From Nitrospira sp. (GTDB lineage: Bacteria > Nitrospirota > Nitrospiria > Nitrospirales > Nitrospiraceae): DNA of 64,000 bases. Where the stretch lies: positions 325,905-389,904 of the forward strand of contig SWDN01000003.1 of assembly GCA_005116775.1 (NCBI GenBank), given 5' to 3'. Of the stretch, positions 5,841-64,000 are shown in pieces (positions within the stretch are counted from its first letter, which is position 1; every line of letters begins with the position of its first letter). The notes under the pieces are model-generated. The model searched no databases and was not told the origin of the DNA. It saw nothing but the letters and a program-made list of their open reading frames with translations. The translations under genes and the position numbers were made by a program.

Positions 5841-7760
5841 TTAGATCGATTTTCCCTTCATGAGTGCAATCACGCTCGTCATGGTGACTGCGTCGTCGTC
5901 GAATCCACCATGCGTCGTGCTGGTCGATTCCTTGCCTGGCGCAGCCCAGGTAGAGACGTTCGGCAAATTCTTCGATCCAATGTGGTCGTTGAAATATTTC
6001 TCCATGCCAAGTATCGGCGTCGTCTGTCCTTGTTCCAACGATTGCGATACCAAATAGAGCAGCGAGCGGCTGTAGCCGAGAATCGGCTTGCATGTTGGAT
6101 CTTTCTGCTCCATGTCGTCGGATAGATGGAACTGATTGAAGCGCTTGACCTTGCCGCTTTTGATGGCAGGGACCACGGTCGTATTGAAGAGATCGACCCG
6201 CACCGCCGGCGCCATAAAATTCACGCTTTCGAATGTCCAGCCCTGGCCCCCCAGACGGTCGACGACATGACTGTGTAGGATTGCCCCGGCTGAGTGGCCG
6301 ACAAGATGCAGTCTCACCTTGGAGAGATCGGCAAAATACGGCGATTGCTGGCAGGCTCTATAGAGCTTCATGCCTCCACTCTCAGCCGTATTGGAAATCG
6401 CGTCTGCATTCTGTTTCATCTCCCTCCAGATCGCCGTTCCCGGTGTCGTCAAAAGTTTTTCGAGCCGTTCGTTCCACCAACTTTTGACGCCGTCTAAGAA
6501 TCCGCCGGCCGGACGGGTCTGACCCGCTAAGACATCTTCGAGACGCCCCTTGAGTGTGGCCCAGAGGTCTGTTTCCCACATCAGGAAGATCGGAAAAATT
6601 CGCTGTTCATACAATGCCGGAATCCATTTCGCCGCTGTTTCTCCCGCCGTATCCTCAGAGGTGAGACCTCCGTGCGCGTAAATGGCGATATCCAGAGGAT
6701 CGTTCTTTCCCAAATTCCATGCGGTCCGTGCCTTACCGAGATGGTGCGTAACGAGCGCATCGATGTCGGACTCCTGGGTGCGAAAATCGCCCGTATTGCT
6801 GAGCCGTCCGTTGTTCTCCATGTTGATGATGAACGGGCTGATCTCCCGCCTACGCAAGGAAGACTCTCCAGCGAGCTGCACTTTACCGGCTTTCATACGC
6901 AATGTCGGCGACTGCGCGATCGTGAGATGCAGGTCCGTTACCACGCCCAGCTGCGCGACCCAACAATCCATCGCATGGTCGAGCCAATCTTCATACCGCA
7001 ATATGGCGCGGCCTTTTGTGCCCCACTTCGTCCCCCACGAGTTATGCACGATGAATCCATCTTGGGTATAGCCGACGATCGCAAAGGCATGGCCACCGTC
7101 GCTGGGGTTTGCCTTCCGGTGTGGAATCGTCCAATAGCCGCCTTTGGCCTGTGATCTGTTTGAGGATTCGCCATCCCAGCCGGAGTGACAGACCGCGCTG
7201 ACATAGAGAATGCCGATCTCGTTGAGTGCGACATGCATATCCGTAACCGACCGCGTGTCGACGCGGTAATAGGCCCCGAGTGGGCGCTGAACGGCATCGA
7301 GCCACCAGTCGTCTGCCGATTTTTTCACTGGGTCTGTCGGCATCTGTTGCGAGGTCCACAGCCGATCCGAGCAGGCGCCATGCTTGTACCAACCCTTCAT
7401 GGCGCCGCGCAGACTCGACCCGGTATCGACGTCTGGATCACCGGGAAACTCGTCATAGCGCCGAGCCATCGAATACATCATGAATGGGGACACGCAGCAA
7501 TCCAGCCGCTTGCGTTTCGCGGTATGCTGCAAGTGATACACGACACTTGCCAAGGCGAATCCTGTACAGGCATTGGTCTGTTTCTGATTGAGCACAGGAA
7601 TATTAGTCTTTGGAACCACCGTCAACCCTGGAACCACAGCGACCGGCGGCATATAGACCCTATCGCGAAGATCGAGACGATCGGGAACCACATTACGTAT
7701 GAGAACCCTTGAAGCCCTTGGCTTCTTCCCTCTTTCAGCAATGATCTTTTTCCTCTCCAT
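5841..7760 (-). CDS. C1 (papain-like) cysteine peptidase fused to a C-terminal alpha/beta-hydrolase domain
   Basis: NQKQTNACTGFALAS (Cys), GGHAFAIVGY (His), NSWGTKWG (Asn); C-terminal LHLVGHSAGAILHSHVV hydrolase elbow. Confidence 0.85.
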   Translation of the reverse strand: MERKKIIAERGKKPRASRVLIRNVVPDRLDLRDRVYMPPVAVVPGLTVVPKTNIPVLNQKQTNACTGFALASVVYHLQHTAKRKRLDCCVSPFMMYSMARRYDEFPGDPDVDTGSSLRGAMKGWYKHGACSDRLWTSQQMPTDPVKKSADDWWLDAVQRPLGAYYRVDTRSVTDMHVALNEIGILYVSAVCHSGWDGESSNRSQAKGGYWTIPHRKANPSDGGHAFAIVGYTQDGFIVHNSWGTKWGTKGRAILRYEDWLDHAMDCWVAQLGVVTDLHLTIAQSPTLRMKAGKVQLAGESSLRRREISPFIINMENNGRLSNTGDFRTQESDIDALVTHHLGKARTAWNLGKNDPLDIAIYAHGGLTSEDTAGETAAKWIPALYEQRIFPIFLMWETDLWATLKGRLEDVLAGQTRPAGGFLDGVKSWWNERLEKLLTTPGTAIWREMKQNADAISNTAESGGMKLYRACQQSPYFADLSKVRLHLVGHSAGAILHSHVVDRLGGQGWTFESVNFMAPAVRVDLFNTTVVPAIKSGKVKRFNQFHLSDDMEQKDPTCKPILGYSRSLLYLVSQSLEQGQTTPILGMEKYFNDHIGSKNLPNVSTWAAPGKESTSTTHGGFDDDAVTMTSVIALMKGKSI

Positions 7761-50960: not shown

Positions 50961-53063
50961 CTAGATAGCCAGGATTGCGCTTATCGCCGACCGCTCGACG
51001 CGCCCGATATTGCCCCATTGTTCTGCCATCGGGATCAAGGCATGGATCCGCGTCTCGACAGTTTCCAGTCGCTGCGCCAAGGCCGATGTTTTTCGATAGG
51101 CGGCGACCATCAGAAAGGACCGCAGCCCTTGTAAAAACATGGTGATCATCGTCGCCTGAACATGGCTGGCCAGATCGTGGAGGGTTTCGACTTGTTCGAG
51201 AACTGGATCGAGCTGAGATGCCGTCACAAAATCTGTCGCCCCACTCGCCCGCAATCTCTCAAGCGTGGAACTGATGATGGGAACACGATGACGAACTTCT
51301 TGAAGGAATTCTTCGTCGAGTTGGTCAAGTTCAAAGATGATTCGTCCAACGGCGGCGACATTGAGATGATCGGCCTCCTGCTCGGCTCGTTGGATCACCG
51401 CCTCCAACACGTCGCGGGCCGGCTGCATGGAGCGGGCACGAGCTTGCTGGAGATCGCGAAGGGCTTGAATAAGCGGAACGCTTGATTTCCCGGTGAGCGA
51501 AGCCTGCAACATCTGTAGCTGAGGCGCTTCAGCTTGCTCCTGCGCCAAGGCAGGAAGATCCGGCAAGGATTGACTCACCGATTCCACAGGAACGTCTTCG
51601 CGCCCAGCCTGTTCGGCGTCCCGATCTCCTGCTAAGCGACGCACGGCCAGATGGATTCGATCCAATCCCTCTTGAAGCGATTGAAGCGCTGCCGTCATGG
51701 CGCGTGGTTCTTGTCGTCCGACATCATAGAGAATTGGAAGCAGACTCGATGCCATCTGCTCCACAGTTGTGAGCTGCACCGTCGACGCAGATTTAGCGAG
51801 ATTGGTAATCCCCTGCAAAAGAATTCCATAGAGTTTCGGACGCACCGTTCCGTTGGATTCTTGCGCAAGCTGTTTCACCGCCATCTGAATTTGGGCCAGC
51901 CATTCGTGCGCTTCGAGGGCAAACAATCCGATCACTTCCTTTTGAAAATTGACATCCTCAAGGTCTTGCGCCGGAGGACCATCACTCCATCGATCCTTGC
52001 GAGACTGTGACTCAGGCCCACCTTCCAGGGCAGGCGCCATTGATGTCCTAGACTCGACAGCGCCTTGGATCGCGCTCGCCAGCGCGTCCAAACCTTCCAA
52101 CAGCGATGTAAACTGTTCTGACACCGATGGAAGAGCATCTGACGTTCTGATTCGCGTCTCATTTGCCGGAGACCGCACGCGTGCAATGTCAGGAGATTCG
52201 AGTGTTTCGATGATCGACACGAGAGGGGTGCAGCTGAGGTCGACCTGCCGCCCCTCTTGCCCATAGGCGGCATCGCCCTCGACCCATACAACCGGGCGCA
52301 GTGGATAGCGCGTATTGACACGCATGACTGCCCCAATCTCTCCAGTGGTTAACCGTACCGAGGTGCCCAGTGGATACGCCGACAGTTGTTCAACCAAGGC
52401 CTTGATGACCTCGCGAGGGAATGACGTCCGTTCCGCCACCATGAGCTCCCGCACCGCTTCATGGGGGAAAAAGCGTCGACGATACCCGCGCGGGCTCACG
52501 AGGGCGTCGAAGATATCCACCACACCGATGATTTGCGCAAACTCGCAGACTTGCCGTCCCTTCAGTTTGTTTGGATATCCCTGTCCGTTCCACCGCTCAT
52601 GCGCCTGCCGCACCACTTGCGCGAGCCACTCGTATTGCTGGCCTGCCTTCCGAATCGTTTGATAGCCAAGTTCTGGATGTTGCTCAATCAATGTACGCTC
52701 ATCCTGCGTCAATCGGCCCGACTTCGTAATCAGCGATTGCGGCACGGCAAAGAGACCGATGTCGTGCAGCAGCCCTGCAAATGTAAGCTGCTCCAACTCT
52801 TTCCCGTGATATCCCAACCGAGCCCCTACTTTTGTTGCCAGAATCCCGACATTCACAAGGTTCGTAATCAGCGGAGGACCCGAGGGGCCGCTCATCGCCT
52901 GAACGACTAATTGGTCGCTTCTCTTCAGTGACTCAGAAATCTCCACCGCAAGAGCAGACAAGGCCCCTAAATCGAGCGGCTCTTGCCGCTGCACGGCAAG
53001 AGCCACGGCAGTCAATCGCTCCTGCGCCAAACCATACAAGTCCGTCATGTTGGATCCGCTCAT
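50961..53063 (-). CDS. HD-GYP domain protein with C-terminal HPt-like helical module
   Basis: LLHDIGLFAVP...QAHERWNGQGYP...C-terminal FQKEVIGLFALEAHEWLAQIQMAVKQL resembles the 53987-54934 protein. Confidence 0.82.
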   Translation of the reverse strand: MSGSNMTDLYGLAQERLTAVALAVQRQEPLDLGALSALAVEISESLKRSDQLVVQAMSGPSGPPLITNLVNVGILATKVGARLGYHGKELEQLTFAGLLHDIGLFAVPQSLITKSGRLTQDERTLIEQHPELGYQTIRKAGQQYEWLAQVVRQAHERWNGQGYPNKLKGRQVCEFAQIIGVVDIFDALVSPRGYRRRFFPHEAVRELMVAERTSFPREVIKALVEQLSAYPLGTSVRLTTGEIGAVMRVNTRYPLRPVVWVEGDAAYGQEGRQVDLSCTPLVSIIETLESPDIARVRSPANETRIRTSDALPSVSEQFTSLLEGLDALASAIQGAVESRTSMAPALEGGPESQSRKDRWSDGPPAQDLEDVNFQKEVIGLFALEAHEWLAQIQMAVKQLAQESNGTVRPKLYGILLQGITNLAKSASTVQLTTVEQMASSLLPILYDVGRQEPRAMTAALQSLQEGLDRIHLAVRRLAGDRDAEQAGREDVPVESVSQSLPDLPALAQEQAEAPQLQMLQASLTGKSSVPLIQALRDLQQARARSMQPARDVLEAVIQRAEQEADHLNVAAVGRIIFELDQLDEEFLQEVRHRVPIISSTLERLRASGATDFVTASQLDPVLEQVETLHDLASHVQATMITMFLQGLRSFLMVAAYRKTSALAQRLETVETRIHALIPMAEQWGNIGRVERSAISAILAI

Positions 53064-53100
53064 AGTCTGAAACCACCTTCAGGGAAGGTTCGAGCCACCA

Positions 53101-53928
53101 TTATATGACTTGCCCGACCCGTTCAACGAGCCGATCGTCGATCTGTGTGACACTCTCGATCGCTCCAGCAAAGAGACATTGATCGCAGAGCGCATTGATG
53201 AGTCGCCCGATCCCTTTGCTCTGTTCGTAGATCCCTGCCATCGCCTCTTTGGTAAACACATCTGTCCGCTCTGTCACGGACCTCATGCGAGCGACAATAT
53301 ACGACGTCGTTTCCTCTGCCGTGAAGGGGCCTATATGTGCGCGAACCGCGATCCGTTGATTCAACTGGGGAATCCCTGCAACGCGACGACGCAGTTCCGG
53401 CTGACCAATCAGCACAATCGTTAATAGAAAACAATCGTTGAGCTGAAAATTCGTCAGCAATCGGAGATCCTCAAACCCTTTGGCGCTTTCAATCGCTTGC
53501 GCTTCATCCACAATCAGCACTGAACTGATCCCGCGTTGGGCATTCGATTGTAGCCGCTCGTTTAGTGTCTGCAACCGCCTTCCTTTCGACCGCATACGCC
53601 CAAGCCCAAACTGAGACAACACCTCATCCAGCAATTCGGATGGAGACAAGGCGGGATTGGCCACAAGGGCAACATCGTACCGGGCAGGCAACAGCCCAAC
53701 GATCAATCGACGACTCAGCAAGGTTTTTCCGCACCCGACGTCGCCGGTAAGAAGAAGCAGACCCTTGCCGGTCTGAACCCCATAACTCAACCACCGATGC
53801 GCCGCATCATGTTGTGAGCAGGGCACATAGAATCGAGGATCCGGCACATTGTCAAACGGGAAGGCTCGGAGCCTCCAATATTTCGTATAGTCCACATCAA
53901 CACTCATCCCGCCATCATTATCGATCAC
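53101..53928 (-). CDS. ExeA/GspA-like AAA+ ATPase
   Basis: YWRLRAFPFDNVPDPRFYVPCSQHDAAHRWL...LTGDVGCGKTLLSRRLI...VLIVDEAQAI...LRLLTNFQ...IVLIGQPELR. Confidence 0.88.
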   Translation of the reverse strand: MIDNDGGMSVDVDYTKYWRLRAFPFDNVPDPRFYVPCSQHDAAHRWLSYGVQTGKGLLLLTGDVGCGKTLLSRRLIVGLLPARYDVALVANPALSPSELLDEVLSQFGLGRMRSKGRRLQTLNERLQSNAQRGISSVLIVDEAQAIESAKGFEDLRLLTNFQLNDCFLLTIVLIGQPELRRRVAGIPQLNQRIAVRAHIGPFTAEETTSYIVARMRSVTERTDVFTKEAMAGIYEQSKGIGRLINALCDQCLFAGAIESVTQIDDRLVERVGQVI

Positions 53929-53986
53929 GATGTTCGGCCCCGCCAGCGGTTTCGACAGCCCGATGAGGAGAGTTCAGACATATTCA

Positions 53987-54934
53987 TTACAGGTGGCCGG
54001 CAGGAAGCAACCGATCAACCGCGTCGCATTGAGCTTTCTCATATTCCACCCATTGGCGGGCAACGCCGCTCATGACCTGCAGCCGTGCCTTGACCGAATC
54101 CACCCGCGTGGCAGCCAGAAGCGCTCGACCTTGCACCACCACGGTCAACAGACTGTGCAAACCTGTAAAAAATGACACCGCCGCACTCGCATTCGCCTGC
54201 TGCGCTTCTGTGCGCAACTGCGCGACATCTTGAAGCGAAGCTTCGAGCGCCATCTTGCATGAGGAGCCTATGTCCCTATCCAACTTGAGCGCATCCATAT
54301 TCCGCACAATCTCAGGAATCTTTTCGTCAACCGCCCTCAGAAACACTTCGTCCGCCTCGGACGCTCGCACAAGATACCCTTGAATGACAACAGGATCGAT
54401 GCGATCTATACCGGCTTGAACCTGTCCTTCCACTTGCTCAATCAAAGTGCGGATGACGTTACGTCCTGCTGTACCATCGGGAAATTTCGTGCGTTGTAGT
54501 TCCTGAAGCGTTCGCAAAAACTCGCTGGATGAAAGACTTGGACGGGCCTCCTCAGTCACCGTGTCACTCGACACGTCCTCGAATGCGATACCCGTTGCAC
54601 GAGTCAATGCAGTATGGATCTGCCCGAGCTGTTTACACAGCGAGAGGAAGTCCTGAACGGAAAGTGATTTCTGCGGGTCCTGAAGAGCGATAGCAAAAGG
54701 AATTGCTTCGAAGCTGACCTGCGCGACATCGGGAAGATTCAGCGTGGCTGCAGATCCGCCAAGATTCGTCAATCCAGCCGATATCGTCCCAATCAGCTTC
54801 GCATGACGTTCCGGCGCCGGCCCCTGTTGCAACTCATCCAGAGCGACATGAATGTTCTGGAGCCATTCCTTCGCTTCTTGAACAAACAGATCGATCAGCT
54901 CTTTCTGGAAGTCATCCGAGGAGTCGGCAGCCAT
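53987..54934 (-). CDS. HPt-like helical protein lacking the phosphoacceptor His
   Basis: DFQKELIDLFVQEAKEWLQNIHVALDEL...AGLTNLGGSAATLNL; paralogous to the C-terminus of the HD-GYP protein. Confidence 0.65.
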   Translation of the reverse strand: MAADSSDDFQKELIDLFVQEAKEWLQNIHVALDELQQGPAPERHAKLIGTISAGLTNLGGSAATLNLPDVAQVSFEAIPFAIALQDPQKSLSVQDFLSLCKQLGQIHTALTRATGIAFEDVSSDTVTEEARPSLSSSEFLRTLQELQRTKFPDGTAGRNVIRTLIEQVEGQVQAGIDRIDPVVIQGYLVRASEADEVFLRAVDEKIPEIVRNMDALKLDRDIGSSCKMALEASLQDVAQLRTEAQQANASAAVSFFTGLHSLLTVVVQGRALLAATRVDSVKARLQVMSGVARQWVEYEKAQCDAVDRLLPAGHL

Positions 54935-54986: not shown

Positions 54987-56213
54987 TCAGGGCCGTCGCT
55001 TGCCATTCCCCAGCTGAGAAGCCAACCCTGCAATCTCGCCAAGCTTTGTCGCCATTTCCTCGAATCGTTTAGAGGCTTGTTCGGCTGCCAGTTCAGTTTC
55101 AGAAACACGCTTCATCAAAAGACTATTTCGCTCTCGCTCGGTCTGAAGCAGTGCCTCCCCTTCCTGAACCTTCTGCAATGCGCGCTCAGCTTCGGAAAGG
55201 CGCGCGGCAAGATCTCGATTGGTGTGCTGTTCGGCAGCCAGCGTTTGCTCCAACGCACGCACTTGCGCGGAAGCCTGCTCACCCTCGGCCACACGACGAG
55301 TTAGATCGCTCGTTTGCTCTTGCTCCAGCGCAAGTTGTTTTGCCAACACCTGTGATCGGGTCACCGCCTGTTCCATCTCAGCCATTTGTTCAACCAATTG
55401 AGCCGCAGCCTGGCGCTCGGCGTTTAGAGCCGCTTCCAATTCTTGAACACGGCTCGCGCCCGCTTGCAACTCGGCGAGACGCGCGGCCTGTTGGGCTCGA
55501 TCTTGCCGTTCTTTCTGAAGCTCGGCCTCGAGCTCCTGCACCCGTGCAACAGCGCCGTCGGTCTCTGCAAGCTGCTTCTTCAGCTGAGCAATCCGCTCTC
55601 GCTCCCCTGCCAATATCGACTCGAACTCCTGAGCACGGCCCACTTGTCCTTCGAGTTGTGCCACTCGCTGCGCGCTTCGCGTTGCGCGATCTCGCTCAGC
55701 CAATAATTCTTCCTCCAGCGGCTTCAATCGTGCAACAGCCCGACGATAGCCATCTAATTGTTCGTCGCTTACACGTGAACTTTGAGTCGACTCGATCGGC
55801 TGAGCCACCTTCTCAACACTCTTAACAGTAGGGGCCACGGTGCTTTGCCGCTTAGCCAATAATTCCAATACTCGATCCTTGAGAGAGGTGCCTTGGAACG
55901 GCTTTTTCAGGACTCCATCCGCGCGACAGGATTCCGCCTGCTTTGTCACCTCATCATTCACGATGCCGGAGATGAGAAGCACAGGCGTATTCGCCAGCGA
56001 CCTCTGTGCGCGCACGAAGGCGCACACTTCATAGCCGCTTTTGTCCGGCATAATGACATCGGACACGACCAAATCAGGAGTCTCTTTGGCCAAATACGCC
56101 AATGCTTCCTCGCCGTTCGCAGCAAGCGTGACTCCAAATCCGGCCTCCGTTAGCAACCGTTCAGCGACTTTCCTGACCGCGATACTATCGTCGGCAATCA
56201 AAACTTTTGTCAT
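54987..56213 (-). CDS. Response regulator receiver domain with long C-terminal coiled coil (FrzS-like architecture)
   Basis: MTKVLIADDSIAVRKVAERLL...PDLVVSDVIMPDKSGYEVC...KKPF, then heptad-rich sequence. Confidence 0.87.
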   Translation of the reverse strand: MTKVLIADDSIAVRKVAERLLTEAGFGVTLAANGEEALAYLAKETPDLVVSDVIMPDKSGYEVCAFVRAQRSLANTPVLLISGIVNDEVTKQAESCRADGVLKKPFQGTSLKDRVLELLAKRQSTVAPTVKSVEKVAQPIESTQSSRVSDEQLDGYRRAVARLKPLEEELLAERDRATRSAQRVAQLEGQVGRAQEFESILAGERERIAQLKKQLAETDGAVARVQELEAELQKERQDRAQQAARLAELQAGASRVQELEAALNAERQAAAQLVEQMAEMEQAVTRSQVLAKQLALEQEQTSDLTRRVAEGEQASAQVRALEQTLAAEQHTNRDLAARLSEAERALQKVQEGEALLQTERERNSLLMKRVSETELAAEQASKRFEEMATKLGEIAGLASQLGNGKRRP

Positions 56214-56237: not shown

Positions 56238-56705
56238 TTACCGTGTGACGGCATCTTGTATCGACCGTCCCAATCTCTGCAATGCCACAATAGTCACGTC
56301 ATGCTCACCGATCGTGACGGAACCCAACGATTCGATATCCCTGCCGCCACTGGATCGTATGGCAGCCACTTCTACAGTTTCGAGAGACGGCACATCGGCA
56401 TCAATGCAGATGGCCATCGGCCCATCGAGGTGTCGAACCTCCAAACACAAGAGTGGATCTCCTTGCACCGTACGATTCAGTCTTTCCGCCAAGTCGTACA
56501 CCGGCATAGCACGATTGTCGCGCTTCAGAATAGCCCGTACAAACGGTGTCCCACTCGGCACCTGAATAGTTTGAGTCCAGGGAGACACCCCTCCTACATC
56601 TTCAGTCCTTGCTGCCAGCCTAATTCCACCGACGGAAAATACCACCACATTCCACGACCGTTTCGCGCCCTGAACCTGATGTTGTCCACGACTAGCCCTC
56701 AGCAT
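56238..56705 (-). CDS. CheW-like protein (divergent)
   Basis: WNVVVFSVGGIRLAARTEDVGGV...RAILKRDNRAMPVYDLAERL. Confidence 0.75.
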   Translation of the reverse strand: MLRASRGQHQVQGAKRSWNVVVFSVGGIRLAARTEDVGGVSPWTQTIQVPSGTPFVRAILKRDNRAMPVYDLAERLNRTVQGDPLLCLEVRHLDGPMAICIDADVPSLETVEVAAIRSSGGRDIESLGSVTIGEHDVTIVALQRLGRSIQDAVTR

Positions 56706-57217
56706 GATTCACCAAGTGTTACTGGGGTTGCCCTCATCGACTGTTCTACCTGCCCACGAGGCGCAGCCTCTGCGCTCGACAACTCCCCTAGCGCCCACGA
56801 AGGGTTCAGGATTAATACTAACTGATCCTGATACAGCATCATCCCTCCGAACCAGTTGCGCTCATCGCCTCGAAACTGGGCCGGTAACGGCAAACATTCA
56901 TTCGGCTCTACATCTATCAAGCCCACGACCTGTTCTACAGCCATCGCACCCTGGGAACGTCCGGTCGAATACAACACCGTCCTCATCTCAGGACCAGACA
57001 GGTCGGCAACGATTGACAGCTGCCGGGCAAGATCCACCTGTCGATATACGCTCCCAGCCTCGGTCACGGTCTGTTCATGACCAGCCTCTTCTGACGTAAG
57101 AACCCCGCGAACCCCAGTTGCAGGCAGAGCCAAATAACTGAGCCCTACACGAACAACCAGGAAACTCGCCGTCTGCAACGGCCTGGTTGTCGAATTCTGG
57201 CGGCCTCGCAAACTCAT
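56699..57217 (-). CDS. CheW-like protein
   Basis: SFLVVRVGLSYLALPATGVRGVLT...VYRQVDLARQL...LILNPSWAL. Confidence 0.78.
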   Translation of the reverse strand: MSLRGRQNSTTRPLQTASFLVVRVGLSYLALPATGVRGVLTSEEAGHEQTVTEAGSVYRQVDLARQLSIVADLSGPEMRTVLYSTGRSQGAMAVEQVVGLIDVEPNECLPLPAQFRGDERNWFGGMMLYQDQLVLILNPSWALGELSSAEAAPRGQVEQSMRATPVTLGESC

Positions 57218-57283: not shown

Positions 57284-60200
57284 TTACTGGCGCACAGCGA
57301 CTTCTTTACCGATCCAGCGCTCGATTTCCTGGATCAAAGCCCGCTCTTCGACAGGCTTGGCAATATAGGAACTCGCCCCAATATTGAGAGCCATTTGGCG
57401 GTGTTTATCGCCGGCCCGCGTCGTCATAACGATGACTGGTGTCTGCTGTGTTTGCTCACGGCTGCGCAGTCCCTGAATCACTTCAAAGCCATTCAACTTA
57501 GGCATTTCAAGATCGGTAATGATCAGCTGATACTGTTGTGAAGCGGCCTTTCGAAGCCCCTCCTCTCCATCGACCGCTGTATGAACTTCATACCCAGCCG
57601 ACTCCAACATTCGACCGACAAACTTTCGAATGCTCAAGGAGTCGTCGATCAGGAGCAGCAATCGCTCTGCCGCTTTCGGCTCTGAGGTCTCGGTATAGGG
57701 AGCCAACAAGTCCGTCGAGGCCATCGTATTAAGCGCCACGTCTGTCGCCGCAAGGGCTTGAGCCTCTCGCCCCAGCAATCGAGCAGGATCCAGAACAAGA
57801 ACCACCCGTCCTTCCGGATCGATGGTCGCACCGCCGAAGCTGGAGCGGTTCAAAGACTTCAACGACCCCAGCGGCTTAATGACGATTTCCTGCCGACCGA
57901 GCAATTCATCGACCACGATGCCGATCATCCCGGATGCCGTTCGCACAATGACTACAGGTTTCCCGATTTCCACAGCCACCGTGCTTCGACTCAGGATCTG
58001 CTGGAGCGACTGCACTTCTATCGCCTCGTCACCGATATGTAATATCGATCGTTCGCCCACCCGTTGATGTACGCTCGGAGTCAACATGGTGACTTCACGC
58101 ACCGCAGGCAACGGAATCGCATAGCACTCCCCTCCGGCTCGGACCATCAGAGCCGTGGCAATCAAGAGCGTGAGTGGAAGGCTGAGAGTAAACTTCGTCC
58201 CTACCCCTCGAATAGATTCGACATCGATGTGGCCGTTCATGCTTTCAATGACACGCTTGACCACATCCATACCGACCCCTCGCCCAGCCTGATCGCCGAC
58301 CTGGTCAGCTGTGGAGAATCCCGGCATGAAAATATACTTGATCACTTCAGACTCGGGTAACGAACGGGCCACCTCCGGACGGATCAGCCCCCGTTCGACC
58401 GCCTTAGCTCGAATTTTTTCGACGTCAAGCCCTGCACCATCGTCTTCGACTTCAATCAACACCGCATTTCCACGATGCGCCGCATGAAGATAAATCGAGC
58501 CAGCCGCCGGTTTGCCTTTTGCCACGCGAATAGCTGCCGATTCGATCCCGTGATAGACCGCGTTGCGCACAAGGTGAATCAACGGATCGACAAGCCGCTC
58601 CACAACGCCCGTATCAACGTCGGTATGTTCACCAGACGTGATCAACGTCACTTCTTTCCCCGTTGCTCGCGCCATCTCACGCGTCGCGCGGCGGAATCGT
58701 GTGAATGGCGTCCCAATCGGCACCATGCGGGCTCGCGCAATTTCATCCCGCATACCGAGGGTCAATTGCGCCAAATGACTCATATCTTCATGGGAACGGC
58801 GAATCGACCCGCTCAACTGCGTCATCGACTCTGAAATATCTGCAGTCACTTCGCTGATCCGACGTGCCAAAATATTGAAATCGTCGTACTTGTCGAATTC
58901 AAGACTGCCGAAATCGCTCAGGCCATTGAATCCTGGAATCGGATCGGCTGCCGGAGAGGAAGTGGCACTCGGCAGTGTAAACGTGTGTTTCTCCTCGAAC
59001 GAATGGACCGATTCCACCAGCCGTCCTTTGTACGCCAATACCTGCTGCGAGAGTTGCTCCAATATATGCAGCCGCTGCTCAAGCCGCCCTCGGCCGATCA
59101 CGAGCTCACCGACAAGATTCAACAGCCGTTCCAGTCGATCGCGGCTCACGCGGATCACTTCTCGATCTTCTCCCGCTTTGCTATCGGTGGTTTTCCCCTC
59201 TTCCGCCTTGGCGGATTCGACTGTTTCTTGATCGTGTGGTTCCTCGCTCACAGGCGCAACGGTGCGCGCGGCGCCTGAATCAGACGATACCATCTGACTC
59301 GCTGCCGGCTGATCGAGCCGCTTGAGTTCTTGCATCGTGTCGGAAAACCGTTGACGCAGCATTCCAAGTGTCCCGGGATCTCGCCGCATCAATAGACGGA
59401 CCACGTCAACCGACCGCAACAGCACATCCGTATGCCCAGGGAGTATCGTTACACGCCCCTCGCGCACGGCTCCCATGAAATCTTCGACGTAATGCATCAG
59501 ATCCCCGACCGACTGGAATCCCACGGTATACGCAGACCCTTTGAGCGTATGAGCCGTCCTGAAGAGTTGGTCGATCACTTCCGCACTGTGTGCTTCTTTT
59601 TCAAGGCGAAGTAATTGGGCTTCAAGCGATTCTAAGTATTCTTGGGCTTCCGGTGCGAAATACGACAGCACTTCGGCGTCGAGATGAGGCAATAGATATT
59701 CGTCCGTCAAGGGACTCGATACCGGCAATGCCTCCACTCCGGAATCTGGGGGTTCACTGAAGTCTTCCACTACAGACGTCACAACGTGAATTGCCGAAGC
59801 AGGTGGAGCTTCAACCTGGGGCAACAACGCCACTGACTCTCCGTTACAGGCTTGCACAAGCGCATGAATCACATTAGGCACATCATGCTGTAACTGGACA
59901 ACTTTGCCGCCGTCTCGGCTCAACAGAAGCCGAATGACCTCGACCGCAAGATCGATGGTCTTGAGCAGATCGGGCAAGAGGAAAATCCGGCCCTCCCGGA
60001 CCGCGATCAGACACTGTTCAACCGGACTGGCCACATCGCAGACCACCGTGAATCCAATCGTGTGTGCAGAGCCCTTGAGCGTGTGGGCCATGCAATAGAG
60101 CCGATAGATAGATTCATCATCCCTCGCATCCTCCCGTAAGCGATGAAGAAGCCCTTCCATGGTCTGCACATACTCATTAGCCTCCGGAACGAAGTACGAG

Positions 60201-60670
60201 AGAACCTCGGCATCGAGACTCGGCACGAGATAGTCCGGCGCAAGCGTTGCCGGCTCAGACGATGTCGAACTGGGCACTGCCGAAAATAGTCCAGCGACTT
60301 GGCTTTTCCATTGCGCGCTGATCTCCAGGTCTTCGGCTCCCCCTCCTGCAATCACCTGCAGCTGGGTCTTAAACGACACCGCTACCCCTTGCAATATCTC
60401 CAAAGCCTTCGGCCAGAGAGCTGCTTCTATGGTCGGCGCCTCTTCCAACGTCGATTCGAGCAACGACCCCATCAAGGCCAACCCCTCATAGCCATACAGC
60501 CCAGACGCCCCTCGGATCTTATGTGCCCATACATACTGTTCCTGCAGTTGTGCCGGTGTAGGCTGTGAGCCATCGAGGGGATGGAGTGCCTTTGTCAGTA
60601 CGTCCAACGCCTCCGACGCTTCGAGAACGAAGATGTCGACGAGGCCCTGCCGGTCGAACTCTGAGCTCAT
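57284..60670 (-). CDS. Hybrid CheA (ChpA-like): three HPt domains, HATPase, CheW-like, C-terminal receiver
   Basis: AHKIRGASGLYG, AHTLKGSAHTIGF, AHTLKGSAYTVGF; HLVRNAVYHGIES; DQAGRGVGMDVVKRVIESMNGHIDVES; LLLIDDSLSIRKFV...LIITDLEMPKLNGFEV. Confidence 0.93.
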   Translation of the reverse strand: MSSEFDRQGLVDIFVLEASEALDVLTKALHPLDGSQPTPAQLQEQYVWAHKIRGASGLYGYEGLALMGSLLESTLEEAPTIEAALWPKALEILQGVAVSFKTQLQVIAGGGAEDLEISAQWKSQVAGLFSAVPSSTSSEPATLAPDYLVPSLDAEVLSYFVPEANEYVQTMEGLLHRLREDARDDESIYRLYCMAHTLKGSAHTIGFTVVCDVASPVEQCLIAVREGRIFLLPDLLKTIDLAVEVIRLLLSRDGGKVVQLQHDVPNVIHALVQACNGESVALLPQVEAPPASAIHVVTSVVEDFSEPPDSGVEALPVSSPLTDEYLLPHLDAEVLSYFAPEAQEYLESLEAQLLRLEKEAHSAEVIDQLFRTAHTLKGSAYTVGFQSVGDLMHYVEDFMGAVREGRVTILPGHTDVLLRSVDVVRLLMRRDPGTLGMLRQRFSDTMQELKRLDQPAASQMVSSDSGAARTVAPVSEEPHDQETVESAKAEEGKTTDSKAGEDREVIRVSRDRLERLLNLVGELVIGRGRLEQRLHILEQLSQQVLAYKGRLVESVHSFEEKHTFTLPSATSSPAADPIPGFNGLSDFGSLEFDKYDDFNILARRISEVTADISESMTQLSGSIRRSHEDMSHLAQLTLGMRDEIARARMVPIGTPFTRFRRATREMARATGKEVTLITSGEHTDVDTGVVERLVDPLIHLVRNAVYHGIESAAIRVAKGKPAAGSIYLHAAHRGNAVLIEVEDDGAGLDVEKIRAKAVERGLIRPEVARSLPESEVIKYIFMPGFSTADQVGDQAGRGVGMDVVKRVIESMNGHIDVESIRGVGTKFTLSLPLTLLIATALMVRAGGECYAIPLPAVREVTMLTPSVHQRVGERSILHIGDEAIEVQSLQQILSRSTVAVEIGKPVVIVRTASGMIGIVVDELLGRQEIVIKPLGSLKSLNRSSFGGATIDPEGRVVLVLDPARLLGREAQALAATDVALNTMASTDLLAPYTETSEPKAAERLLLLIDDSLSIRKFVGRMLESAGYEVHTAVDGEEGLRKAASQQYQLIITDLEMPKLNGFEVIQGLRSREQTQQTPVIVMTTRAGDKHRQMALNIGASSYIAKPVEERALIQEIERWIGKEVAVRQ

Positions 60671-60720: not shown

Positions 60721-62595
60721 TTAGGCTAGTTTGAACTGGGCAACGGAAGACGTCAGCCCTGCGGCGAGTTTTGCCATATCTTCGACGGTCGCGCGAGCCG
60801 AGTCCGTCGCTTTTTGCGTCTCCAGGGTACCTCCGGCAAACTCCTTGATCGAGCGGCCCACCTGGTCCGTTGAGGCCGTCTGGCTTACCGCGGCGCTCGC
60901 GATGGTCTTCGCTAACTCTGACGAACGTTGGGCGATTCCAGAAATTTCTTTGAACACTTCGCCTGTACGCAGCGCGGATGCCGACCCTGCTTCCACCGCC
61001 TGCGTCTCGTGCTCCATCGCCACGACCGCATCTTGCGTTTCCGTCTGAATCACTTTCACGAGGTCCGCAATCTCTCTGGTGGCGCCCGTAGAGCTTTCGG
61101 CCAACTTTCTCACCTGATCGGCGACCACGGCAAATCGAGCCCCGGCTTCGCCGGCGCCGGCCGCCTCGATGGCTGCGTTCAACGCAAGCAAATTCGTCTG
61201 ACTCGCAATATCGCGAATGGTCGACACGATTTGTGAAATTTCCAGCGATCGATCACCCAGCGCTTTGACCTGTTTTGACATGCGTTGCACCGACGCGCGA
61301 ATACTCTGCATGTCCTGCACGGTCTCCTGCACGGCCACGCGGCCACGTTCCGTCGCCTGCAACACTTGATTCGCAGACTCAGACGAGGCGCCGGCGGTCG
61401 TCGCCACTTGGCGCATTTGGGACGCCAGTTCTTCAACCGCGCCCAGTGTCTTGACCGATTCATCGGCTTGCTGCTTCGCGGTGCCGGACATCTGACTCGC
61501 GTTGTCTCGAAGCACACCGGCCGATGCGTTGACGCGTTCGGCCGACTCACGGACTTGTTTCATCAACTGCGCAAATCGCTGAATCATCAGGTTGAACGCG
61601 TCGGCCATGTTCCCGAACATGTCCGCTGTCACTTCTCCGCGCTTCGTCAAATCCCCTTTTCCGACGTCCGATACCAAGACGAGGAAGACCATCAACCGTT
61701 TTTGCAACTCGTCGCGCTCACTCTCCGCCTTGGAGAGAGCTGTCGTGATGTAATCCAACATGCTATTGAAACCTGTCGCCATCTGACCGATTTCCTCTTT
61801 CGTCGTGACCTTCGCACGGGATTGGTAGTTGCCGGAAGCGGCCAACTGCGCAATCTGCGCGATATGGGAAAGGTTCTTCGAGAAGAATTGAGAAATCCAA
61901 TATCCGATGCCGAGTCCAAGAGCCACCGCAATGATTCCAACGGTGATCGTCAGAATCATCGCGTTAGTCGACAAGGATTGGGCATCTTCGTTAAGGTCCT
62001 TCGCCACATCGTGCAGGTCCTGAACTTGTTCATGATAGCGCGCGAGGACGTGATCGAACGGCTGCTGTAAATTCACCCTCAAGGCCAAGACCCCCAGCTC
62101 TCGCATATTCTCAGCCTGCGCCGGCGTCAGATTTTTTCCAAAACTATCCGCGAACGCGCTCAATGCTCCTTCCGAATCTTTAAAGTATTGCTCGATAGCC
62201 GGCTTCAAAATCGCCAAGTCCTTCGTCTCGTCACGGCCTGATCGAGACACCCGGAGCACCGTCGCTGAATAGTCGGTGATCACCTGATTCACCTTTTCGC
62301 GATACGGCGCTAAGCGCTTGAACTCCGCCACGAAGTCCGCGTGCTTCGTGATACTCGTCATGGTGGTCAAGACCTGATGGTGCGACGTGAGCGCCGCGCC
62401 CATTTCAGCGAAATCGGATAATGGAACCGTATAGTCGACATATACGGCCTGCGACGCTTCGCTCAACTTCTGGAGCGTCACCACTCCGATGGCCGCCATA
62501 ATCACGATCACGAAACTGACGAGACCGAAGCTTATAAGCAGCTTTGTCCGCGTCTTGAGATTGTAGAATGCATTGCTGTGAGCTACCTTGACCAT
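60721..62595 (-). CDS. Methyl-accepting chemotaxis protein
   Basis: 4HB-like sensor, HAMP, signalling hairpin [44 protein letters not shown]; start taken at [10 protein letters not shown]. Confidence 0.92.
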
Positions 62596-62658
62596 CACGT
62601 CCTCCTTCTCTCTGATCGTACCCTCTGCTATATGCACGCTCTGCTTGCTGTTCGGTTG

Positions 62659-63186
62659 TTAGCCCGTTTCCTCGAAATGTGAAAGCACCACCGACGTTTC
62701 CAGCACGCCTCGGAGCCGATCCTCCAACTTGACCACTGTCGACACGAAGGGAAATGCCCCTTCTGTCGTTCCGGCTGGAGCTGGAAGAAATTGATCCGCA
62801 GCAATGGTGCGGATTTCCGGAACTGTGTCGACCAGAACGCCGACCTGCCAGTTTGAATGACGCACCACAACGGCATATCGCAGGGCTGCTCCAGCATCTA
62901 AGCCGAACATGGGTCTAAGATCGAGCAACGGGATCACCGTGCCTCGAAGATTCGTGACGCCTACTAATCCAGAGGGTGTTCCAGGCACCGGAGTGATGGA
63001 TTCGACGACGAACACTTCTCGCACACTTTTCAGATCGATCGTGAACAGCTCTCCCCCCATAGAGATAATGGCGGCCCGCATTGTGGCTGAGGGCCCAGCT
63101 GTCCGGGGAAGATCGGATCCGGACGAAGACGTTCCTTGTGCAATCGAGGCGCGATCTTCAACCATCGAACGCCGGGCGGAATCCAT
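62659..63186 (-). CDS. CheW-like protein
   Basis: ELFTIDLKSVREVFVVESITPVPGTPSGLVGVTNLRGTVIPLLDLR. Confidence 0.9.
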   Translation of the reverse strand: MDSARRSMVEDRASIAQGTSSSGSDLPRTAGPSATMRAAIISMGGELFTIDLKSVREVFVVESITPVPGTPSGLVGVTNLRGTVIPLLDLRPMFGLDAGAALRYAVVVRHSNWQVGVLVDTVPEIRTIAADQFLPAPAGTTEGAFPFVSTVVKLEDRLRGVLETSVVLSHFEETG

Positions 63187-63191
63187 CAGCG

Positions 63192-63555
63192 TTAGCCCAT
63201 CACCTTCTTCACGGCGGCCAGCAGATCTTCAGCCTTAAACGGTTTGACGATATAGCCATTCGCCCCTTGTTGTTGTCCCCAGAACTTATCGCTCTCGTTG
63301 CCTTTCGAGGTGCAGAGAATGATGGGGATATTCTTGTATCGATCATCGCTCTTTAAATCACGACAGGCTTGAAATCCATTGCGCCCTGGCATCACCACAT
63401 CCATGACGATGAGATCCGGCTTTTCGTTGGCCAACTTGTCTTCCAGTTTCTCTGAACTGGGAAAAGAAACGACCGTGTGATTGGCCGCCTTGAGGCAGCC
63501 TTCGATCAGCTGAAGTTCGGCATACGAGTCATCGACGACAACGATCTTGCTCATG
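63192..63555 (-). CDS. Single-domain response regulator (PilH/CheY-like)
   Basis: MSKIVVVDDSYAELQLIEGCL...PDLIVMDVVMPGRNGFQACRDL...CTSKGNESDKFWGQQQGANGYIVKPF. Confidence 0.9.
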
Positions 63556-63622
63556 TGACATCTCCATAAAATGGTTAAATATCTGCACACCCGTAGAAGT
63601 GGCCATACAACAAGGCCTCGTC

Positions 63623-64000
63623 TTATTTCAACGGAAGGATCACACTGACCGCCCCAGCCAAACTGCCCTCCTTCCACCCTTCCTTTTTCATTCCAGCAAT
63701 GTCTTGCTCTCCCTTCGGGGCGCCGTGGCAGCTGAGGCAGGACGCAGACGCGTATTCAGGATCCATCATGCGCAGCACTGGCCTTCCATCGACTACTGTG
63801 CTGCGAACATAGACTTGGTCCTTCGGATGGCGCGGATCGCTGAACATCCGAAGCACTTCCTGCTCGAACTCGTCCGGCTTGCTTTTCTGAGTCCGATAAT
63901 CGACCCCCGTCAGTTTCATGCGAACACCGGTCTTCTTATAGAAATGTTCGCCGACACGATGGGCAAACACGGCATGGAGAAAGCCCTTGAACCCGACCCC
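63623..64000 (-). CDS. DUF3365/Tll0287-like heme-domain protein (5' end outside window)
   Basis: CLSCHG c-type heme motif; frame stays open to the window edge (GVGFKGFLHAVFAHRVGEHF). Confidence 0.75.
   Translation of the reverse strand, partial: GVGFKGFLHAVFAHRVGEHFYKKTGVRMKLTGVDYRTQKSKPDEFEQEVLRMFSDPRHPKDQVYVRSTVVDGRPVLRMMDPEYASASCLSCHGAPKGEQDIAGMKKEGWKEGSLAGAVSVILPLK

Follow-up and report, generated by a model that had tools for sequence, protein, structure and literature searches.

The window, a stretch of 64,000 nucleotides from a Nitrospira sp. contig, carries a chemosensory gene cluster in which two proteins, P0001 and P0002, share a module that is related to the P1/HPt domain of the kinase CheA and has lost the residues of phosphotransfer. 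Because these residues are lost in every relative examined, we consider it most likely, at somewhat better than even confidence, that both proteins contain a catalytically dead pseudo-HPt module derived from CheA P1, which would act as a chemosensory docking scaffold in the manner of FimL from Pseudomonas aeruginosa. The two genes are the following:

53987-54934, minus strand: P0001, stand-alone two-bundle pseudo-HPt protein, FimL-like, 315 amino acids (aa), with the pseudo-HPt at aa ~9-115 and a second helical bundle at aa ~181-309
50961-53063, minus strand: P0002, degenerate HD-GYP domain (aa ~62-230), beta segment (aa ~235-289) and two-bundle pseudo-HPt module (aa ~369-700), 700 aa

The paralogy of the two modules, proposed in an earlier sequence-only reading of this DNA, is detected by BLASTP, which aligns P0001 with P0002 residues 372-698, the C-terminal half, over full length (26% identity, 333 columns, E = 3e-26). 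The motifs LTNLGGSA of P0001 and ITNLAKSA of P0002 align with the AHTLKGSA motif of CheA, with T56 and T420, respectively, in place of the histidine, again as had been proposed; in the profile-profile alignment TNLGGSAAT stands opposite HTLKGSAYT, and the L, S and A of HTLKGSA are mostly kept in the modules. Profiles were needed to establish homology to HPt domains, since the single-sequence BLAST match of P0001 to the CheA of its own cluster is weak (E 0.04) and insufficient when taken alone. The Pfam HPt model (PF01627) matches P0001 residues 12-76 at 19.8 bits, below its gathering score of 24.6, and gives a match at E up to 1 in 22 of the 48 family members, the best at 1.9e-5. When these 48 sequences were aligned into a family profile, A1, and compared with the PDB, Thermotoga CheA P1 was matched across the entire domain (E 2e-5 and 5.6e-5), while profile-profile comparison of the N-terminal part with the clusters' own CheA domains by hhalign yielded 95.9% probability for HPt3 (E 5.5e-9) and 95.0% for HPt2 (E 4.1e-8). 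Four helical controls (MCP ligand domain, MCP signalling domain, coiled coil and CheA P3) reached at most 2.3% in profile-profile comparison, indicating that the similarity to HPt2 and HPt3 is not due to chance. The demonstrable likeness is confined to the N-terminal ~110 of the ~315 residues in each module, and the resemblance to CheA HPt domains claimed in the sequence-only reading is supported for this part only. Our confidence that the first bundle is homologous to CheA P1/HPt, as judged from its sequence, is high. Matches of P0001 to protochlorophyllide reductase in the PDB, as well as weak Pfam matches to DUF3851 and ApoB100_C, were taken as chance.

A scan of the genome contigs with the single P0001 sequence produced no match, while the alignment-based scan did find members of the family. 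Profile searches of 296 genomes sampled phylum-wide revealed no full-length module member beyond Nitrospirales; in those other genomes the profile matches only the N-terminal HPt of long CheA-type open reading frames (ORFs), with a best E of 2.4e-10. Several of these CheA-type matches keep an intact AHTLKG or AHSLKG motif, and one also has the FQK start (EDFQKRLLDTFTVEAREHL).

In the AlphaFold2 model of P0001, built with A1 (mean pLDDT 80.8, pTM 0.55), the N-terminal part forms a predicted antiparallel four-helix bundle of the HPt type (helices 3-36, 41-64, 68-83 and 93-114), and the model matches CheA P1 (1tqg) in Foldseek with a probability of 1.00 and a TM of 0.71 by target, further HPt matches being 3kyj, 2ld6 and 1i5n. 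Both the four-helix fold and the HPt profile similarity are thus as the sequence-only reading had led us to expect. The Foldseek list for the whole of P0001 is headed by designed helical repeats and bundles, with the HPt matches at E of at least 0.25; these E-values are weak, and the assignment therefore rests on the sequence profiles plus the fold. The model of P0002 is weaker (pLDDT 69, pTM 0.39); it again contains the two bundles, here at 369-477 and 569-699, and matches 1tqg with a TM of 0.76 and a root-mean-square deviation of 2.8. The first bundle of P0001 is followed by two short helices and then by helices 181-218, 224-246, 250-267 and 275-309, the order of which is that of the first bundle. 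This second bundle may be a second decayed HPt: it aligns with the first in register, bringing L58/A62 near L240/A244, but hhalign assigns this pairing a probability of only 4-5%, and profile comparison detected no clear relatives.

The alignment to 1tqg places H45, K48, H64 and E67 of T. maritima CheA, which we take to form the hydrogen-bond network of P1, at T56, G59, F75 and I78 of P0001. No histidine was found at the phospho-site in any of the 93 P0001-like or 44 P0002-like (fused) sequences; the former have threonine in 78 cases and A, M, S or I in the remainder, and the latter T in 35, S in 5, N in 3 and A in 1, although these are not counts of independent events, since the sequences are all related and include near-duplicates, a few genomes having been fetched twice. 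The equivalents of K48, H64 and E67 are mainly G, F and L in the P0001-like set, where the last varies among L/I/V/F, and mainly A, S and L in the fused copies, where the first is A/G and the second mainly S/T. HPt3 of CheA in the same clusters, on the other hand, has retained H, K, H and E in 66/66 sequences. With the histidine absent and its Lys, His and Glu companions replaced next to an intact HPt3, we conclude with high confidence, as far as sequences can tell, that the loss of the phosphotransfer site is old and complete, in clusters that still hold fully equipped HPt domains; the recurring histidine-less HPt fold described from the window is conserved across Nitrospiraceae.

In the P0001-like sequences G54, N57, L58, S61, A62 and T64 are nearly invariant, suggesting that the face around the former phosphorylation site still has a job. 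One conceivable job is phosphorylation of the very residue that replaces the histidine, as proposed for the Thr/Ser-type phosphotransfer domains of ChpA (PMC12632253), which are likewise of the HPt type and have Thr or Ser where the His would be; threonine is the commonest residue at the site in both copies. We regard this as very unlikely, because Thr is common but not fixed: Ala, Met, Ile and Asn occur there as well, and the Lys, His and Glu that would assist it have been lost. The ChpA domains, moreover, are parts of a kinase, whereas the Nitrospira modules belong to separate proteins. Docking without phosphate exchange is the reading that we prefer.

The sequence-only reading had also suggested that the scaffold might link chemosensing to a c-di-GMP-type domain (c-di-GMP, cyclic di-GMP). 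An HD-GYP domain is indeed fused to the module of P0002, with HD and GYP motifs present, a Pfam HD_5 match at 1.4e-30 and HD-GYP domains as the structures nearest to its model, but it is itself degenerate at metal and catalytic positions. Alignment with the HD-GYP protein PmGH shows that H221, D222, H250, H277, D305 and Y285 are retained in P0002; PmGH metal ligands E185, H189 and H276 (PMC4159591) correspond to P64, N68 and A154, and catalytic D183 and K225 to G62 and L104. These replacements, which affect three of the eight metal ligands and both catalytic residues, are found in nearly all of 82 HD-GYP sequences, in which position 68 is always N, position 154 either A or V, and position 104 L, I or V. 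An active c-di-GMP phosphodiesterase, placed under chemosensory control via the pseudo-HPt, would be in line with the motifs, the HD_5 match and the nearest structures, but is highly improbable in view of these nearly fixed replacements, since alanine at H189, H276, D183 or K225 abolishes the activity of PmGH, with E185A being partly active (PMC4159591). DvhD from Desulfovibrio vulgaris, an HD-GYP protein without metal ligands that is among the structures nearest to the P0002 model, binds c-di-GMP and does not hydrolyse it (PMC13090378). The PmGH residues contacting c-di-GMP, Y285, R314 and K317, the last two of which touch a guanine, are equivalent to P0002 Y163, R192 and R195 (K to R), all invariant in 28 orthologues. 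From its sequence, the P0002 domain looks like a c-di-GMP receptor or a structural piece and not like a phosphodiesterase, the receptor role being likelier because the metal and catalytic positions are lost, the c-di-GMP-contacting residues are kept, and DvhD provides a precedent. The two proteins do differ: in DvhD the HD motif is replaced by SQ and neither His of HH remains, whereas P0002 keeps HD and the second His, and DvhD has a PAS/HD-GYP module in an adhesin-release system, with no pseudo-HPt reported in it.

The remaining genes of the cluster, those from the CheW-like proteins to the CheY-like receiver other than P0003 being synteny markers identified from sequence, are:

53101-53928, minus strand: P0004, AAA ATPase, between the P0001 and P0002 genes
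54987-56213, minus strand: P0005, receiver domain followed by a long coiled coil
56238-56705, minus strand: CheW-like protein
56699-57217, minus strand: second CheW-like protein
57284-60670, minus strand: P0003, CheA-type kinase with three His-bearing HPt domains, kinase core, CheW-like and receiver domains
60721-62637, minus strand: methyl-accepting chemotaxis protein (MCP)
62659-63186, minus strand: third CheW-like protein
63192-63677, minus strand: stand-alone CheY-like receiver

Read 5' to 3' on the minus strand, the order is CheY, CheW, MCP, CheA, two CheW, P0005, P0001, ATPase and P0002, with short gaps. Pfam recognises three HPt matches in the CheA protein in addition to its kinase, CheW and receiver domains, and the receiver of P0005 has all of D8, D9, D52, S82 and K104 intact. 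The true start of the CheY-like receiver probably lies at MSKIVVVDD, within the listed ORF. The best NCBIfam model for P0004, TIGR03015 (XrtA/PEP-CTERM-associated ATPase), scores 210 bits, below its cut-off of 324.5. A search on Nitrospira CheA plus HD-GYP returned no earlier description of this cluster in the paper library covered, the sole result being a Leptospirillum transcriptome paper.

To our knowledge, FimL is the best-studied parallel to these modules, and it has so far stood rather alone as a histidine-less HPt protein. In the Pil-Chp system of P. aeruginosa, FimL has HPt-like domains with Gln at both phospho-sites and is thought to act without canonical phosphotransfer (PMC3019171), so that the pseudo-HPt scaffold envisaged in the sequence-only reading already has a precedent. 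FimL interacts with FimV and PilG, and FimL and ChpA together bring PilG to the pole (PMC10519157). Both cases involve a CheA system with several HPt domains and additional receivers, in which HPt-like domains lack the phospho-His. FimL probably has two HPt-like units per protein, to which the two bundles of each Nitrospira module may correspond; its sites carry Gln, whereas those of the ~315-aa Nitrospira modules carry Thr and other residues; and the Nitrospira modules lie within the chemosensory operon. New with respect to FimL are the fusion of a pseudo-HPt to a dead HD-GYP domain, the duplication, and the occurrence in another phylum.

By analogy, the pseudo-active-site face would bind a receiver without exchanging phosphate, most likely that of the adjacent P0005 or, alternatively, the CheY or CheA receiver, and the module would hold it near the output, for which type IV pili are the probable candidate. 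The fused copy would make this docking dependent on c-di-GMP through its degenerate HD-GYP domain, which would bind the nucleotide and leave it uncut. Our confidence in the scaffolding role is moderate, and in c-di-GMP gating low; the functional idea of the sequence-only reading is thus plausible in a partly corrected form. It is also possible, if doubtful, that the system is a double pseudo-enzyme integrator, in which the dead HD-GYP senses c-di-GMP and relays its state to the dead HPt, which captures chemosensory receivers, with the stand-alone paralogue competing for the same receiver; if so, the second-messenger level would gate phosphorelay output through a linker protein without any enzymatic step. 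The main rival to the scaffold would be a decoy acting on CheA, in which the pseudo-P1 competes with the true P1 for the kinase core and tunes kinase output. Descent of the module from CheA P1, its presence in one operon with a CheA carrying three HPt domains, and conservation of both the helix A start and the site face would all fit such an inhibitor, but the P0001 gene adjoins the receiver protein gene and not cheA, and the FimL precedent is one of receiver and polar-hub binding; we therefore hold the decoy to be unlikely. If the scaffold reading is right, pseudo-HPt scaffolding is a recurring solution, with the FimL design found in a distant phylum, and chemosensing has a direct covalent link to c-di-GMP in nitrifying Nitrospira, which are of importance both in soils and in wastewater and have been little studied for their surface behaviour.

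We sought the possible output in 61 genomes, that of the window and 60 relatives. The module is present in 39 of them, and all 39 have a PilM_2 match, while FliG is missing in 13 of the 39, including a single-contig genome that is 99% complete, and three more have marginal FliG matches; for these reasons type IV pili appear weakly favoured over flagella. Both genomes without PilM_2 also lack the module (G016 and G021, 1.7-1.8 Mb).

Several points weigh against a FimL-like scaffold with pilus output. PilM_2 is nearly universal in the set, which makes its association with the module weak, and it also gives matches in some of the control genomes that have no type IV pili; flagella, for their part, occur in more than half of the genomes. 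We infer receiver or CheA binding, as well as the identity of the partner, by analogy, and P0005 may be a neighbour instead of a partner. The Pfam and NCBIfam matches include no FimL model, the likeness to FimL being drawn from descriptions, and FimL is longer, resembling the N-terminal 563 residues of ChpA. Finally, pTM is modest for both predicted models.

The named relatives in which P0001 is encoded are nearly all Nitrospira isolates and metagenome-assembled genomes, N. moscoviensis included. In 92 loci compared, some gene absences are accounted for by contig ends; the stand-alone module is present in 92/92 (most loci were fetched by that module), the receiver gene in 85, HD-GYP in 84, the fusion of HD-GYP with the module in 44, and the ATPase in 49. 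Short HD-GYP proteins without the module make up 37 of 82. The latter, together with the lack of clear relatives of the second bundle, would agree with a structural leftover, an old HPt duplicate used only for oligomerisation or folding and devoid of a signalling interface; we think this quite unlikely, as the stand-alone copy, by which most of these clusters were fetched, occurs in all of them, and few of its parts are as conserved as the site face. The candidate partner of a docking scaffold, the receiver protein, neighbours the pseudo-HPt gene in nearly all relatives; across 86 aligned rows of these receivers, the acidic pair, phospho-Asp, Ser and Lys are kept throughout, gapped rows excepted.

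The P0004-type ATPase is variable, being absent from many otherwise similar clusters. Its ORF is split into two pieces in L008/L041, and in L082 and L083 the gene is lengthened to ~450 aa, with the added stretch resembling the P0005-type coiled coil. Sister family f2 has just one module, located after the receiver, and no HD-GYP gene in the vicinity, which suggests that the receiver and the pseudo-HPt constitute the core, with duplication and fusion occurring later, in the family represented in the window. In a midpoint tree, the single-copy proteins of the sister family group with the HD-GYP copies, although its internal branches are short and its rooting is uncertain. At one locus (L153, G190:C124) the stand-alone copy clusters with the fused copy of that same locus, apart from the remaining stand-alone copies, as though one had been replaced by, or re-derived from, the other. 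Another locus (L165, G080:C1:108000-124000) retains, at ~6992-7430, no more than short pieces of the second bundle, spread over two small frames that include a stop; its genome is small (2.0 Mb, 99% complete), and the system appears to have decayed there. Two contigs titled as Omnitrophota and Nitrosospira (L104 and L128) carry the Nitrospira cluster, with ~44% identity to P0001, and are probably mis-binned or mislabelled.

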